Assembly (NCBI RefSeq): GCF_026967935.1 | Contig: NZ_JAPVBL010000001.1 | Span: forward strand, 124,001 to 188,000 | Reading direction: 5' to 3' | From: Modestobacter sp. VKM Ac-2982 | GTDB lineage: Bacteria; Actinomycetota; Actinomycetes; Mycobacteriales; Geodermatophilaceae | DNA: 64,000 bases | In this document: in pieces, positions 8,423 through 44,808 of the stretch | How the letters are laid out: each line of letters starts with the position of its first letter | How positions within the stretch are numbered: the stretch's first letter is position 1 | The notes under the pieces: generated by a model | Database searches by the model: none | What the model was told of the DNA's origin: nothing | The model's input: only the letters and a program-made list of their open reading frames with translations | Position numbers and translations under genes: made by a program

Positions 8423-8450
8423 GGGCCCCGTCATGGCGTCGAGCCATGTG

Positions 8451-8537
8451 CGGGAGCTCGGAGGACCGGGCTGAGAGGGCGGCTGACGCGCCGCCGACCG
8501 CTGGAACCTGACCGGGTAATGCCGGCGTAGGGAGCCC
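8451..8537 (+). promoter_or_regulatory. TPP riboswitch (THI element) 2
   Basis: Contains CTGAGAGGG, a GC-rich variable stem (GGCGGC...GCCGCC), and the thi-box core ACCTGACCGGGTAATGCCGG followed by CGTAGGGAG. The closing arms pair as CGGG (8451) with CCCG (8534). The GGGAG near 8529-8533 is both the aptamer 3' end and the only ribosome binding site for cytX (ATG 8541), so ligand binding would hide the site directly. Confidence 0.93.
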
Positions 8538-8540
8538 GTG

Positions 8541-9884
8541 ATGAGCACATCTGGAACCGTCGGCACGACCACATCCGGTGCGGACGCACCGCTCACCCTC
8601 ACCGAGCCGGCGGCCCGCACGCTGGGCTTCCGGGAGTCCGCGGGCCTGTGGGGCAACCTGGGCATCAGCCTGCTGCTGCCGGTGGCCGCCGTCTACGTCG
8701 TCCTGCCCGGGCGGCCGCTGTCGGTCACGCTCGGCGCGATAGTGGTGGGTGCCCTGATCGGCGCCTCGCTGCTGGGGCTGGCCGCCGCGGCGGGCGCCCG
8801 CGAGGGGGTGCCGGGGATGGTGCTGCTGCGCGGCCTGCTCGGCCGGCGGGCCTCGTACCTGCCCACCGCGCTGAACCTGGTGCAGTGCATCGGCTGGGCC
8901 ACCTTCGAGATCGTGATCATCGCCGAGGCGGCGTCCCGGGTGCTGGACGCGCCACGCTGGCCGTTCGTGCTGCTCGCCGGGGTGCTCGCCACCGCGATGG
9001 CGCTGCGGCCCCTCGGCGTGGTCCGGGTGCTCTCCCGCTACGCGGTGTGGGCGGCGCTGGCCGCGATCGTCTACCTGTTCGTCGAGGTGCTCTCCGAGCC
9101 GCTCGCGCCGCTGGACGCCGGCGGCGCCGCGTCGTTCTGGACGGCGACCGACATCGTCATCGCCCTGCCGATCTCCTGGTTCCCGCTCGCCGCCGACTAC
9201 ACCCGGCATGTGCGCAGCGGCCGGGTCGCCGGCACGAGCACCGCCCTGGGCTACGGGCTGGCCACCGTCGCGATGTTCACCCTCGGCGTGCTGGCGCTGG
9301 CCGCCTACGGCAGCTCCGGCCTCGACGTCATCGACGCGCTGCTCGCCGTGCCGCTGGGCGCGCTGGCGGTGCTGGTGCTCGTCACGGTCGAGCTCGACGA
9401 GGCGTTCGCGAACGTCTACTCCACCGCCGTGTCGGCGCAGAACGTGGTGGCCCGGCTGGACCGCCGGCTGCTCGCGCTGGGCGTCGGCGCCACCGCCACC
9501 GTGCTCGCGCTGAGCTTCGACATCGTCGCCTACGAGCCCTTCCTCTTCCTGATCGGCGCGGTCTTCGTGCCGCTGATCGGCGTCTTCCTGGTCGCCTACG
9601 CGCTGCGCGCCCCCGGCCGGTGGGACACCTCGGACACCGCCCCGGCCCGGCTGGTCTACCTGCTGCCCTGGCTGGCCGGGTTCATCGCCTACCAGCTGAC
9701 CCTGCCGACCTTCTTCTCCGGCGTCGGCGCCGGCTGGACCTCCTGGTGGGCCGCACGCCAGACCGACCTCGGCATCGACCCGGCCAACGGCTGGTCGGCC
9801 TCGCTGGTCAGCCTGGCCGTCGCGGCGTCCCTCACCGCGGTGGTCGCGCTGCTCGACGCCCGCCGCGGGCGGCAGCGGGCATGA
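8541..9884 (+). CDS. cytX: NCS1-family hydroxymethylpyrimidine/cytosine-type permease (CytX)
   Basis: 447-residue inner-membrane transporter with about 12 hydrophobic segments. It opens with LTEPAARTLGFRESAGLWGN and has WFPLAADYTRH, a motif of nucleobase:cation symporters of the NCS1 family. TPP-riboswitch-controlled members (CytX) import hydroxymethylpyrimidine or related bases for thiamine synthesis. ATG 8541 is seven bases from GGGAG; a GTG codon just before it (8538) is an alternative start. The last bases overlap the thiE start (ATGA), so it leads the thiE-O-S-G operon. It fits an organism that imports the pyrimidine half and makes the thiazole half. Confidence 0.87.
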   Translation: MSTSGTVGTTTSGADAPLTLTEPAARTLGFRESAGLWGNLGISLLLPVAAVYVVLPGRPLSVTLGAIVVGALIGASLLGLAAAAGAREGVPGMVLLRGLLGRRASYLPTALNLVQCIGWATFEIVIIAEAASRVLDAPRWPFVLLAGVLATAMALRPLGVVRVLSRYAVWAALAAIVYLFVEVLSEPLAPLDAGGAASFWTATDIVIALPISWFPLAADYTRHVRSGRVAGTSTALGYGLATVAMFTLGVLALAAYGSSGLDVIDALLAVPLGALAVLVLVTVELDEAFANVYSTAVSAQNVVARLDRRLLALGVGATATVLALSFDIVAYEPFLFLIGAVFVPLIGVFLVAYALRAPGRWDTSDTAPARLVYLLPWLAGFIAYQLTLPTFFSGVGAGWTSWWAARQTDLGIDPANGWSASLVSLAVAASLTAVVALLDARRGRQRA

Positions 9885-39946: not shown

Positions 39947-40747
39947 ATGTCCACACCCGGCTCCGAGCCCACCGTCACCCGCTCCGACGCCGACGGCGTC
40001 GCCACGCTGACCCTGCAGCGACCGGCGCTGTCCCACCGGCTGCGCACCGAGCTGCTCGCCCACGTGCAGGAGGTGGCCGCCGACGAGTCGGTGCGCGCGG
40101 TGCTGCTCACCGGCAGCGGCCGTGCCTTCTGCGTCGGCCAGGACCTCGCCGAGCACGTCGAGGAGCTGCGCTCCGAGCGCCCGGACGCGCAGCCCTCGCT
40201 GTCGGTGGTCGAGGCCGAGTACAACCCGCTGATGCTGGCGCTGGCCGGCCTGCGGGTGCCCCTCGTGGTGGGGGTCAACGGCGCCTGTGCCGGCGCGGGG
40301 CTGGGGATCGCGCTCGCCGGTGACCTGCGGGTCGCGGCCGCCGGCGCGAAGTTCACCACCGCGTTCGCCGGCATCGGGCTCTCCAGCGACTCGGCGCTGG
40401 CCTCGCGGCTGGTGCACTGCGTCGGCGGGTCACGCGCCACGGAGCTGCTGCTGCTGCCCGAGCCGTTCCTCGCCGAGACCGCCGCCGAGTGGGGGCTGGT
40501 GCACCGCGTCGTCCCGGCCGCGGACGTGCTCGCCGAGGCGACCGCGCTCGCCACCCGGCTCGCCGCCGGGCCGACCCGGGCCTACCGGGCGATCAAGACG
40601 GTGCTGGCGACGGCGGCCACCGACAGCCTGGCGGACACCCTGGCGCTGGAGGCGAGCCTGCAGACCGACCTGGGGCGGACCGCCGACCACAGGGAGGCCG
40701 TCGAGGCGTTCCTGGGCAAGCGACCGGCGGTCTTCACCGGCCGCTGA
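39947..40747 (+). CDS. Enoyl-CoA hydratase/isomerase family protein (PaaG-like)
   Basis: 266 residues of the crotonase fold. Oxyanion-hole segments are GSGRAFCVGQDL and GVNGACAGAGLGIALAGDL. The usual catalytic Glu pair is absent; instead GIGLSSDSA carries an Asp, as in PaaG-type isomerases (LVPDSG pattern). The N-terminal substrate motif is also odd: RPALSHRL replaces the common RP-x-x-x-N. It probably handles a ring or unsaturated acyl-CoA with the upstream dehydrogenase. ATG 39947 has GAGAGG upstream. Its 3' end overlaps a small minus-strand ORF by 14 bases, and a parS site begins four bases after the stop. Confidence 0.85.
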   Translation: MSTPGSEPTVTRSDADGVATLTLQRPALSHRLRTELLAHVQEVAADESVRAVLLTGSGRAFCVGQDLAEHVEELRSERPDAQPSLSVVEAEYNPLMLALAGLRVPLVVGVNGACAGAGLGIALAGDLRVAAAGAKFTTAFAGIGLSSDSALASRLVHCVGGSRATELLLLPEPFLAETAAEWGLVHRVVPAADVLAEATALATRLAAGPTRAYRAIKTVLATAATDSLADTLALEASLQTDLGRTADHREAVEAFLGKRPAVFTGR

Positions 40748-40979
40748 CCGGTTCCACGTGGAACCAGCTGGCGGCGGTGCAGACGGTGCAGACGTCGACG
40801 GCGCGCACCGGCCAGTGCTCCTCGGTGCTCACCCGGGCCAGGGTGCCGCAGACGCTCAGCTCGCAGGCGCCGTCCAGGTCGGCCGGGGCCCGGTGCACCT
40901 CCACGGCGTGCCACAGCGCGGCGGTCGGCCCGTGCGCACGGCTGCGGGCGGCGGCGAACATGAGCGTCTGCGTGGTCAC
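40734..40979 (-). CDS. Small Cys-containing hypothetical protein
   Basis: 81 residues from GTG 40979 (VTTQTLMFAAARSRAHG), ending CTVCTAASWFHVEP. Four Cys, two of them as C-T-V-C, hint at a metal or redox site. No family recognised. The ribosome site is poor (AGAGG touches the GTG), and a later ATG at 40961 is an alternative. Codon bias is like real genes. The parS palindrome at 40751 is inside it and fixes the residues Phe-His-Val-Glu near its end. Confidence 0.42.
   Translation of the reverse strand: MTTQTLMFAAARSRAHGPTAALWHAVEVHRAPADLDGACELSVCGTLARVSTEEHWPVRAVDVCTVCTAASWFHVEPVSGR
40751..40764. other. parS centromere site (copy 3)
   Basis: Exact GTTCCACGTGGAAC palindrome, just after the enoyl-CoA hydratase stop and inside the 3' end of the small minus-strand ORF. 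Confidence 0.82.
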
Positions 40980-41115
40980 CTCTGGGACGTCGGCAGCACC
41001 GGCCCATCGGCAGAGTGGCTCCGTCGCCGGCTCACCCCATCGGAGGACCCCGCCCGCTGCCGACGTGTGGCGTGGCACCGTGCAACGACGTCCCACCGCC
41101 TGCGAGGAGGCCCTG

Positions 41116-41754
41116 GTGCAGCTCACCAAGCACGGACACGCCTGTGTCGTCCTGTCCGACGGCGACCGACGGCTGGTCGTCGACCCGGGCGCGTTCACCG
41201 CGGACGACGCCTGGCACGGCGCCTCGGCCCTGCTGGTCACGCACCAGCACCCCGACCACTTCCTGCCCGAGAAGGTCCGCGCGGCGCTGGACGCCGACCC
41301 GGCGCTCGAGGTGTGGACGAACTCCGCGGTGGCCGAGCAGCTGGCGGGTGCGGGCCCGCGGGTGCACGTGGTCGGGGCCGGTGACGCCGTCACCGCCGCG
41401 GGGTTCGAGGTCACCGTGCACGGGGAGTGGCACGCCGTCATCCACCCGGACCTCCCGCGGGTGCGCAACGTGGGGTTCCTCGTCGAGGGCCGGGTCTTCC
41501 ACCCCGGCGACGCGCTCACCGTGCCCGAGGTGGCCGTCCCGACCGTGCTGCTGCCGGCCCACGCGCCGTGGTCCAAGACCGCCGAGCTGATCGACTACCT
41601 GCGCGAGCTGCGCGCCGAGCGGGCACTCGCCGTGCACGACGGCCTGCTCAACGACACCGGCCTGGGTCTGGTCGCGGGCCTGCTCGGTGAGCGCGGCCCC
41701 GGCCAGCCGGTGCCCTACACCCGCCTGGCCCCCGGGGAGTCCGTCGAGGCGTGA
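41116..41754 (+). CDS. Metallo-beta-lactamase-fold hydrolase (UPF0173/YtkL-like)
   Basis: 212 residues. VQLTKHGHACVVLSDG starts the fold; the metal motif is VTHQHPDHF (H-x-H-x-D-H). Further metal and core segments are HGEWHAVIHPDLPRVRNVGF, FHPGDAL and VLLPAHAPWSK. The family comprises metal-dependent hydrolases of mostly unknown substrate. GTG 41116 has GAGGAGG five bases upstream. It converges on, and overlaps by 40 bases, the EAL-LOV gene. Confidence 0.85.
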   Translation: MQLTKHGHACVVLSDGDRRLVVDPGAFTADDAWHGASALLVTHQHPDHFLPEKVRAALDADPALEVWTNSAVAEQLAGAGPRVHVVGAGDAVTAAGFEVTVHGEWHAVIHPDLPRVRNVGFLVEGRVFHPGDALTVPEVAVPTVLLPAHAPWSKTAELIDYLRELRAERALAVHDGLLNDTGLGLVAGLLGERGPGQPVPYTRLAPGESVEA

Positions 41755-43583
41755 GGTGCCGCGGGGGGCACCGGCACGGTGACCCGCGGGTCCAGCTCGG
41801 CGATCCGGGCCACGTGGCTCCGCACCCGGTCCCGCTCGGTGAGGAGGGCGCGCTCGGTCTCCACCTGGTCGGTGACGTCGGCCTGGATGCCGATGTACTG
41901 GACGACGGCGCCGGACTCGTCGGTCACCGGGGTGAGCGTGCACTGGTTCCACCAGGTGCTGCCGTCGGTCCGCCGGTTGAGCAGCACCTCCCGGCACTCG
42001 GCACCGGCCGCGATCGCCGCACGGATGCGGCCCACGGCGGCGGCGTCGGTGTCCGGGTGCTGCAGGAAGCGGCAGTTGCGGCCCAGCAGCTCGGCGGCGG
42101 GCTGCCCGGCCAGCCGCTCGAACGCCGGGTTGACGTAGACCAGCGGCTGGTCGGGGAGCCGCAGGTCGACGACGGTGACGCCGGTGCCGACCGCGGCCAG
42201 CGCCCGGTGCAGGAGCGCCTCCCCCGGGTCGCCGGCCGACCGGCCGGCCAGCGGCGGGACCACGCCGGCGGGCACCGGGGGCACCGCGCCGTCCGTCGCC
42301 GACGCGGGCTGCGCGGTGCTCGGCGCGACCCGGGAGAGCAGGGCCTGGGCGGCCCGGACGACGGTGTCGCGCTCGTAGGTGAGCGCGAAGGCGAAGCGGC
42401 GCTCCAGGTCCGGCCCGTCGTCCCCCAGGTCGCGGGCCAGCAGGGCAGCGCTGAAGTGCGGGCTGAGCACCACGATGTCCCACTCGCCGCGCACCGGGTC
42501 ACCGGGCGCCAGATCCGCGCCGCGCAGGCCGGGCATCGGCTCCACCGGCAGGTCCTCACCGAGGACGGCGACGAACCCGACCCGCTCGACCAGGTCGCGG
42601 TAGCGGAGCCGGGTGGCCGGCGTGAGGTGGCGCGCCTCCTGGAACGTGGCGACGACCACGCAGGTCTCCCCCAGGCGCATGGCCTGCCGCTCCAGCTGCT
42701 TGCTGAGCTCGATCAGCAGCGCCTTGGGCGCCTCCCGGACCGGTGCGCGCGCCGGCAGGCAGGCGAAGGGGGAGACCAGCTCGCCCCGCGGGTCGGTGGA
42801 CTGGACGACGGGCAGCCGGAGCGTGCCGGGTCGCGCCCCGGGGGCCACCCCGGGCCCCGGGCGGCCGAACAGCCAGCCCTGCCCCAGGGTCGCGCCCAGC
42901 GCCCGGGCCATGGTCAGGTGCGTGCCGTTCTCGATGCCCTCGGCCAGCACCAGCGCCCCGGTCGACTCGGCGTAGGCGTTGACCGCGTTCATGATCTCGG
43001 CGATCGCCGGGCCCGGGCGCTCCTGCACCAGGCGCAGGTCGAGCTTGACGACGTCCGGGCGCAGCAGCGGCATGAACGCCAGCGACAGGGAGTCGGCGCC
43101 GACGTCGTCCAGGGCGATCGCCCAGCCGAACTCGCGCACCCGGGCGATGGTGCGCAGCAGTTCTGCGGGGCGGGCGGCGAGCGCACGCTCGGTGATCTCC
43201 AGGACCACCCGCAGGTCCGCGGGCACCGGCTCGCCGGCGTCGAACAGGGCGGCCACCGGGGTGTCGTCCAGCACCTCGGACTCGACGTTGACGAAGACGG
43301 TCGACGGGGCCAGCAGCCCGTGCGTGACCGCGCCGCGCAGGGCGGCGGCCCGGCAGGCCTGGTCGAGCTCGGTGAGGCAGCCCTCGGCGCGCGCGGCGGC
43401 GAACAGCTCGTCCGGTGCGCTCAACGGGCCCTCCGGGCCGCGGGCGAGCGCCTCGTAGGCGACCACCCGACCGCTGTCCAGCTCGACGATCGGCTGGAAG
43501 ACGCTGGTCACCGCCCGGTCCGCGATCACCGCCCGGACACCGGTCGTCCACTGTTCCCGGAACTGCTCCACGTCGTCCCCCAT
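41715..43583 (-). CDS. EAL-DICT-LOV protein: candidate blue-light-controlled c-di-GMP phosphodiesterase
   Basis: 622 residues. The N-terminal EAL domain (about 10-245) has YEALARG, EITERA, ALDDVGAD (canonical DDFGTG), VVKLD and LAEGIEN, so the metal and catalytic residues look intact. A DICT domain follows (about 255-420: LIELSKQLERQAMRLGE, VVLSPHFSAALLARDL). The C-terminal part is a LOV-type PAS (about 470-575), with LVYVNPAFERLAG, the photoactive Cys motif GRNCRFLQ (Cys 504), LLNRRTDGSTWWNQ and YIGIQADVT. FMN-binding Asn and Gln positions are kept. It would break down c-di-GMP under blue-light control. ATG 43583 is chosen; the longer frame overlaps the divergent GAF gene. Confidence 0.88.
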   Translation of the reverse strand: MGDDVEQFREQWTTGVRAVIADRAVTSVFQPIVELDSGRVVAYEALARGPEGPLSAPDELFAAARAEGCLTELDQACRAAALRGAVTHGLLAPSTVFVNVESEVLDDTPVAALFDAGEPVPADLRVVLEITERALAARPAELLRTIARVREFGWAIALDDVGADSLSLAFMPLLRPDVVKLDLRLVQERPGPAIAEIMNAVNAYAESTGALVLAEGIENGTHLTMARALGATLGQGWLFGRPGPGVAPGARPGTLRLPVVQSTDPRGELVSPFACLPARAPVREAPKALLIELSKQLERQAMRLGETCVVVATFQEARHLTPATRLRYRDLVERVGFVAVLGEDLPVEPMPGLRGADLAPGDPVRGEWDIVVLSPHFSAALLARDLGDDGPDLERRFAFALTYERDTVVRAAQALLSRVAPSTAQPASATDGAVPPVPAGVVPPLAGRSAGDPGEALLHRALAAVGTGVTVVDLRLPDQPLVYVNPAFERLAGQPAAELLGRNCRFLQHPDTDAAAVGRIRAAIAAGAECREVLLNRRTDGSTWWNQCTLTPVTDESGAVVQYIGIQADVTDQVETERALLTERDRVRSHVARIAELDPRVTVPVPPAAPHASTDSPGARRV

Positions 43584-43689
43584 CGGAGCCGGGCACCGAC
43601 CTCTGGAGTCTGACAGCATCGTCGTGCTCCCGAGCGGTGAGCACCCCGGTGGCCGTCGCCGGGCAGGCTGCAGACGAACAGGGGGCACG

Positions 43690-44808
43690 GTGACCGCTGC
43701 GTACGAACTGCCGACCTGGTCCGTCCTGCCGGCCCGGCCCGACGCCGCCTTCGACCGGCTCGCCCGGTCGGTGGCCGAGGAGCTGAGCGCCCCCCGGGCA
43801 CTGGTCGTCCTGGTCTCCAAGGCCGGTCAGGTCTTCCCCGGCGCCTTCGGGCTGCCCGAGCCGTGGGCCAGCCGCCGCTCGATGCCGCTGAGCCACTCGA
43901 TCAGCAAGCGGGTGGCCACCAGCGGCAGCCCGCTGGCGCTGCGCGACGCCCGGGAGCACCCCGAGTTCGCCACCGGCCCCTCGGTCCAGGAGCTCGATGC
44001 CGTCGCCTACGCCGGGACGCCGCTGTGGGGGGTGCACGGGCAGCCCATCGGCGTGCTGTGCGCCATCGACACCCGCCCCCGGGACTGGACCGGCGACGAG
44101 CTGGCCACGCTGCACCGGATGGCCGACGAGAGCTCGCGGCAGCTCCGGTTCCGGGCGATCGAGCTGGCCGAGCAGGAGGCACACGCGGTCGCCGTCCGGG
44201 ACGACAGCGCTGCCCAGAGCGCTGCGGAGGCGGCGCGGGCCGCGTTCGTGCTGGCCGAGGCGGACGCCGACCGCGCCCGTGTGGTCGCCCGGCTCAGCAC
44301 CGCCCTGCTGTCGGCGGAGACGCTCCCCGACCTGCTGCACACGGTGGACCGGCTGGTCCGGTCCCCGCTGGGCGCCACCACCGTGCTGCTCGGGGTGGCC
44401 GAGGTGGGGTGTCCGGAACTGCAGGTCTGGTCGGCGACGGCCGGCTCGCGGAGCGGTCCCGTCGCACGCCTCGGGGTCGACGACGCCCACCCGCTGGCGG
44501 CGGCGATGCGGGAACGGCAACTGGTGGCGATCGCCACCCCGGGGGAGGTCCGAGCCCTCCCGGGGCTGCGGGAGCTGCCCGGTGCAGGTCCGGTGCTCGC
44601 CGTCCACCTGCCGCTCGGTCAGCACCACTCCGATGCCGCACTGCTGGTCAGCTGGCGGCAGCCCCGGCAGCTGGACGCGCCGGTGCGGGCCGTCGTCACC
44701 GACCTGGCCCGGCCGGTCGGCCACGCCCTGGACCGGGTGCTGCTGCGCGAGCAGCGACTGCAGTTGGCGGAGCTGCCGCTCGGGCCGTCCGGGCCCGACC
44801 GACGCTGA
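43690..44808 (+). CDS. Tandem GAF-domain protein
   Basis: 372 residues. First GAF about 15-165 (VLVSKAGQVFPGAFGLPEPW, PLSHSISKRVATSGSPLALRD, YAGTPLWGVHGQPIGVLCAID), a helical linker rich in Ala and Glu, and a second GAF about 200-350. It ends LLREQRLQLAELPLGPSGPD, resembling the linker that leads into SpoIIE phosphatases, but no phosphatase follows. It may be a truncated descendant of such a sensor, or a stand-alone regulator. GTG 43690. Divergent from the EAL-LOV gene, with which it may work. Confidence 0.78.
   Translation: MTAAYELPTWSVLPARPDAAFDRLARSVAEELSAPRALVVLVSKAGQVFPGAFGLPEPWASRRSMPLSHSISKRVATSGSPLALRDAREHPEFATGPSVQELDAVAYAGTPLWGVHGQPIGVLCAIDTRPRDWTGDELATLHRMADESSRQLRFRAIELAEQEAHAVAVRDDSAAQSAAEAARAAFVLAEADADRARVVARLSTALLSAETLPDLLHTVDRLVRSPLGATTVLLGVAEVGCPELQVWSATAGSRSGPVARLGVDDAHPLAAAMRERQLVAIATPGEVRALPGLRELPGAGPVLAVHLPLGQHHSDAALLVSWRQPRQLDAPVRAVVTDLARPVGHALDRVLLREQRLQLAELPLGPSGPDRR

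Follow-up and report, generated by a model that had tools for sequence, protein, structure and literature searches.

LOV-regulated enzymes of c-di-GMP turnover are already known. SL2 from Synechococcus elongatus, a LOV-GGDEF-EAL protein, hydrolyzes c-di-GMP in blue light (PMC8846402), LOV-activated cyclases have been described (PMC10396304), and ≈18% of bacterial LOV proteins bear GGDEF or GGDEF plus EAL (PMC4844311). Where one photoreceptor combines GGDEF and EAL, assigning the light control to one half or the other is difficult. BlrP1 from Klebsiella (BLUF-EAL) is a blue-light-regulated EAL phosphodiesterase that lacks a cyclase, and in PAL from Nakamurella (PAS-ANTAR-LOV; 6hmj), a C-terminal LOV domain acts on upstream domains, with RNA binding as the output. 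The protein described here, with an EAL-DICT-LOV order and no GGDEF, is a new variant; we found no papers on EAL-DICT-LOV proteins in the open-licence literature, which is not proof of their absence. Like SL2, it would couple LOV to an EAL phosphodiesterase, but the domain order is opposite, with LOV N-terminal, GGDEF present, and no DICT described in SL2. The proposed activity resembles that of the cyclase-free BlrP1, in which, unlike here, the photosensor is an N-terminal BLUF and there is no DICT. Finally, the C-terminal placement of LOV is that of PAL, whereas the predicted output is c-di-GMP turnover.

The gene lies on the minus strand at positions 41715–43583 of a 64,000-nucleotide stretch of Modestobacter sp. 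VKM Ac-2982 (the window; contig NZ_JAPVBL010000001.1, positions 124,001–188,000). The reading frame is open, with its stop at 41715 and 622 codons from ATG 43583. The ORF and locus alignment leave the start codon ambiguous between ATG 43583, GTG 43571, and ATG 43619; GTG 43571 is kept in 17 of 17 aligned loci, and ATG 43583 is absent or out of frame in several. Pfam matches give the domain order of the 622-residue protein as EAL (21–242), DICT (286–385), and LOV (PAS_9/PAS; 457–574), in agreement with the original prediction of EAL and DICT followed by a full C-terminal LOV in a soil- or stone-dwelling bacterium, an assignment that suits Modestobacter. A full-length AlphaFold2 model (mean pLDDT 83) aligns in Foldseek with LOV structures and with EAL phosphodiesterases, e.g., PaMorA (4rnj).

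The LOV domain (41862–42215, minus strand; residues 457–574) is recognized by Pfam (E-value 3.7e-18), by a PDB sequence match, and by Foldseek. The top PDB sequence match of the window protein, and the nearest LOV sequence in the PDB, is the receptor 6hmj (4.7e-33), and NCBIfam places the YtvA family and a blue-light histidine kinase nearest among its LOV models, both below their full-length cut-offs. Within the predicted PAS fold, the GXNCRFLQ signature of LOV photoreceptors reads GRNCRFLQ (42060–42083, minus strand; residues 501–508) and places the photoactive Cys at residue 504 (codon 42072–42074), as had been proposed. This pattern occurs once in the window against 0 expected from shuffles, which rules out a chance origin. 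The flavin contacts N503, Q508, N536, N546, and Q567, which cover the Asn and Gln positions named beforehand, are all present, and each of them, like the photoactive Cys, is retained in 82 of 83 full-length homologues. The single exception (L119, from Kineococcus siccus) has lost Cys504, N503, Q508, N536, N546, and Q567 together; K. siccus carries this blind-LOV copy of EAL-DICT-LOV-GGDEF type alongside an intact one (L070) and so provides a natural blind control. On these residues, the window LOV is a probable blue-light sensor. The window genome contains four GRNCRFLQ sites, three of which belong to the EAL-DICT-LOV family; the remaining site falls in a separate LOV protein that, judged by eye, seems to continue downstream into GAF plus a PP2C-type phosphatase.

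The EAL domain (42858–43523, minus strand; residues 21–242; Pfam 2.9e-38) harbors the full metal and catalytic set of EAL phosphodiesterases (E, N, E, D, D, K, E, Q) as E44, N99, E129, D159, D160, K180, E215, and Q235, together with the loop-6-stabilizing glutamate, E132. These ligands are invariant or found in 82 of 83 full-length homologues, and the E132 position is invariant. Active EAL domains carry a DFG(T/A)GYSS loop 6 (PMC2994820); in the window protein, this loop reads DDVGADSLSL (DVGADSLS in place of the usual motif), and EAL activity may for this reason be low. The same deviation is common to all EAL-DICT proteins inspected, LOV present or not, which makes it a feature of the subfamily, not a sign of decay. 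The domain, earlier described as apparently active, thus has the expected catalytic ligands but departs from the usual loop 6; it should break down c-di-GMP, with activity not assured given that loop.

DICT, listed as a domain without discernible purpose (PMC8846402), occupies 42309–42800 (minus strand; residues 262–425), with a Pfam core at residues 286–385 (PF10069; 2.6e-10, 40.8 bits versus a curated cut-off of 23.8). Its model is confident (pLDDT 92), and its fold was compared with two libraries, the PDB and viral predictions. The top PDB matches in Foldseek belong to the PLD superfamily, namely FAM83A (BJ-TSA-9), PPK1, Zucchini, and SauUSI (probability 0.85–1.00), and those among viral predictions are a PPK C-terminal domain, a NucT-like nuclease, and PLD-like proteins (0.60–1.00 for the viral PLD-like matches); in the same searches, E-values are weak (~1e-3 to 1e-1) and TM-scores moderate (0.38–0.56). 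The HxKxxxxD catalytic motif (HKD) was not found in the DICT alignment, hmmsearch of the PDB found no DICT–PLD sequence homology, and hhalign of DICT against PLD domains gave a probability of 0.1, with a DICT alignment low in diversity (Neff 2.9). We found no paper linking DICT with phospholipase D in the open-licence literature. The predicted PLD-like fold is a lead, not a result. The window protein offers a tractable system for asking what role DICT plays.

The named relatives at 95% identity are Modestobacter isolates, and further named homologues come from Geodermatophilus, Blastococcus, Klenkia, Kineococcus, Cellulomonas, Motilibacter, and a Nocardioidaceae MAG. A close match is present in 22 of 23 genomes of the genus, and a close homologue in 84 of 99 good-quality genomes of Geodermatophilaceae, where the match ends before LOV in a few. 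The order EAL-DICT-LOV, initially thought uncommon, is the rule in this family, and GGDEF follows LOV in almost all close homologues; it is the missing GGDEF, not the domain order, that sets the window protein apart. The uncharacterised EAL-DICT-LOV-GGDEF proteins of Geodermatophilaceae, Kineococcus, and Cellulomonas (typified by L002, L070, and L110) share this order, mostly 56–70% identity, and the same catalytic and flavin residues, but they run on into GGDEF, whereas the window protein stops after a C-terminal helix (41793–41873, minus strand; residues 571–597) that is the counterpart of their linker into GGDEF. The window genome encodes two more full-length EAL-DICT-LOV paralogues, 67% and 47% identical, both of which end in GGDEF and contain the only other DICT domains of the genome. 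In many assemblies, L002 and its relatives, which represent the GGDEF-bearing paralogue, are found ~15–17 kb short of where the contig ends; this suggests a nearby repeat, perhaps an rRNA operon.

Elsewhere in the order, some families have the complete EAL-DICT-LOV-GGDEF protein (L138–L140), and several have EAL-DICT without LOV or GGDEF (L141–L143 and L145–L157); the stand-alone proteins L141 and L147–L157, from other Mycobacteriales families, have the same core and the same unusual loop 6 but neither LOV nor GGDEF. Within Geodermatophilaceae, LOV has been lost from copies L158 and L159, in which GGDEF is degenerate. Since the modules vary around EAL-DICT across families, EAL-DICT looks like a core to which modules attach. 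Blastococcus copies (L108:5036–7210, L072, and L106, also L158–L161) are EAL-DICT proteins that lack LOV and whose GGDEF is weak or degenerate, and some of these LOV-less copies sit in tandem.

A tree of 88 sequences, built by a quick method with the distant paralogue L003 set as outgroup, groups the 13 GGDEF-less proteins in a single clade (support 100), and every one of them comes from Modestobacter or a genome of the same genus. The sister clade comprises three Modestobacter entries with GGDEF sequence, one of which (L096) is internally deleted, and every further entry bears GGDEF. Unrooted counts do not separate gain from loss of GGDEF, but the GGDEF-bearing outgroups on every side make loss the simpler reading; given a GGDEF-bearing ancestor, GGDEF was lost once, in Modestobacter. 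Pfam detects in the window protein no GGDEF domain of the kind that defines diguanylate cyclases, and its tail retains the beginning of the linker that precedes GGDEF in relatives. A GGDEF shifted out of frame downstream is ruled out, as no remnant was found there, and a pseudogene or assembly truncation is ruled out by the occurrence of the GGDEF-less form throughout a 13-member clade under purifying selection. Two orthologues are themselves incomplete in the assemblies: a frameshift within EAL splits that of M. caceresii (L092:2772–4877), and that of M. lapidis (L123:1879–4335) ends before LOV, each an assembly error or a pseudogene.

We obtained NG86 estimates of dN/dS for the nine genomes that have both copies, in which pairs are not independent. 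The means for the GGDEF-less versus the GGDEF-bearing copy are 0.21 versus 0.10 (EAL), 0.28 versus 0.22 (DICT), 0.38 versus 0.24 (LOV), and 0.68 versus 1.00 (linker). All domains of the GGDEF-less clade are under purifying selection, and the clade evolves faster than its paralogue in EAL and LOV; the photoactive Cys, the flavin contacts, and the EAL catalytic residues are kept in 13 of 13 GGDEF-less proteins. That LOV was kept up after the domain directly behind it was lost favors, without proving, an effect on EAL, and LOV probably acts on EAL in this clade.

We consider the window protein reasonably likely to be a soluble c-di-GMP phosphodiesterase regulated by blue light, the EAL output of which is altered by the C-terminal LOV; a light-to-phosphodiesterase switch can soundly be inferred from its sequence. 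Blue light would generate a Cys504–flavin adduct in LOV, and the signal would travel through the flanking helices to DICT, probably within a dimer, and on to the N-terminal EAL, where breakdown of c-di-GMP would be changed, most likely raised; the direction of the light effect, activation or inhibition, is beyond what sequence can tell. The 28-residue linker between DICT and LOV (residues 425–452) is disordered in the AlphaFold2 model (pLDDT <50), so that LOV–EAL coupling is not evident from the model. The faster evolution of the GGDEF-less clade and the M. caceresii frameshift likewise count against this reading. Given a GGDEF-bearing ancestor, the protein derives by duplication in Modestobacter from the EAL-DICT-LOV-GGDEF protein found across the family, and the single loss of the cyclase left only the breaking half of a putative make-and-break enzyme. 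The GGDEF-bearing paralogue is retained in the same cell in this genome, and the pair thus separates the two outputs naturally.

Other readings of these data assign a different role to one or the other domain. EAL might be poor or dead but still bind c-di-GMP, which would make the protein a light-gated receptor or partner-binder, perhaps pairing with the GGDEF-bearing paralogues of the same cell; the deviant loop 6 of all EAL-DICT proteins examined and the approximately twofold relaxed constraint on EAL following GGDEF loss are consistent with such a role, but we think it unlikely with a metal and catalytic set, E132 position included, that is invariant or present in 82 of 83 homologues. It is less probable still that LOV, which directly precedes GGDEF in relatives and would normally govern it, is in the GGDEF-less clade a leftover that does not control EAL. 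The concurrence of an absent LOV and a degenerate GGDEF motif in the Blastococcus-type copies L158 and L159 fits this view; the intact flavin residues of all 13 clade members and a LOV dN/dS well under that of the linker argue against it. A flavin redox or oxygen sensor, for which the redox-responsive LOV-like PAS domains of RmcA provide a precedent (PMC8846402), is very improbable, as the near-universal photoactive Cys (82 of 83 homologues) is unnecessary for a purely redox role.

We tentatively propose a broader scheme, itself doubtful, in which DICT is a catalytically dead PLD-like fold that now serves as relay or ligand sensor beside an EAL with a matching altered loop 6, the C-terminal LOV acts backwards through DICT to drive the N-terminal EAL, and the Modestobacter clade isolates the EAL branch by a single cyclase loss. 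As a conjecture, light-controlled c-di-GMP could matter to stone and desert actinobacteria that live on sun-exposed surfaces.

Gene position and order are kept as far as the contigs of the orthologues reach, GGDEF-bearing sisters included. In Modestobacter, a Lactamase_B_3 gene lies on one side, and a GAF-domain gene (Pfam), a GntR/UTRA regulator, and phosphofructokinase lie on the other. The lactamase ORF (plus strand, within 40489–41754) is convergent and overlaps the window gene by 40 bp (41715–41754); its 3' end runs opposite the codons for the C-terminal residues STDSPGARRA, which may be why these residues are conserved. The divergent GAF-domain gene (43690–44808, plus strand) is a syntenic neighbor in Modestobacter orthologues, and no GAF gene was seen beside the GGDEF-bearing paralogues within the short flanks examined. 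The divergent upstream region contains an element, GATGCTGTCAGACTC (43606–43620, minus strand), that with its flanking CTCACC...GCAGG is near-invariant in 17 Modestobacter loci though the surrounding reading frames break. The exact 15-mer is present in a single copy in the genome, and its 7 matches at two mismatches are close to a control count of 4; a role as a regulon motif was rejected on these counts. Rfam finds no known riboswitch upstream of the window gene; elsewhere in the window, it identifies two TPP riboswitch aptamers ~6.4 kb apart on the plus strand (1950–2052 and 8440–8550).
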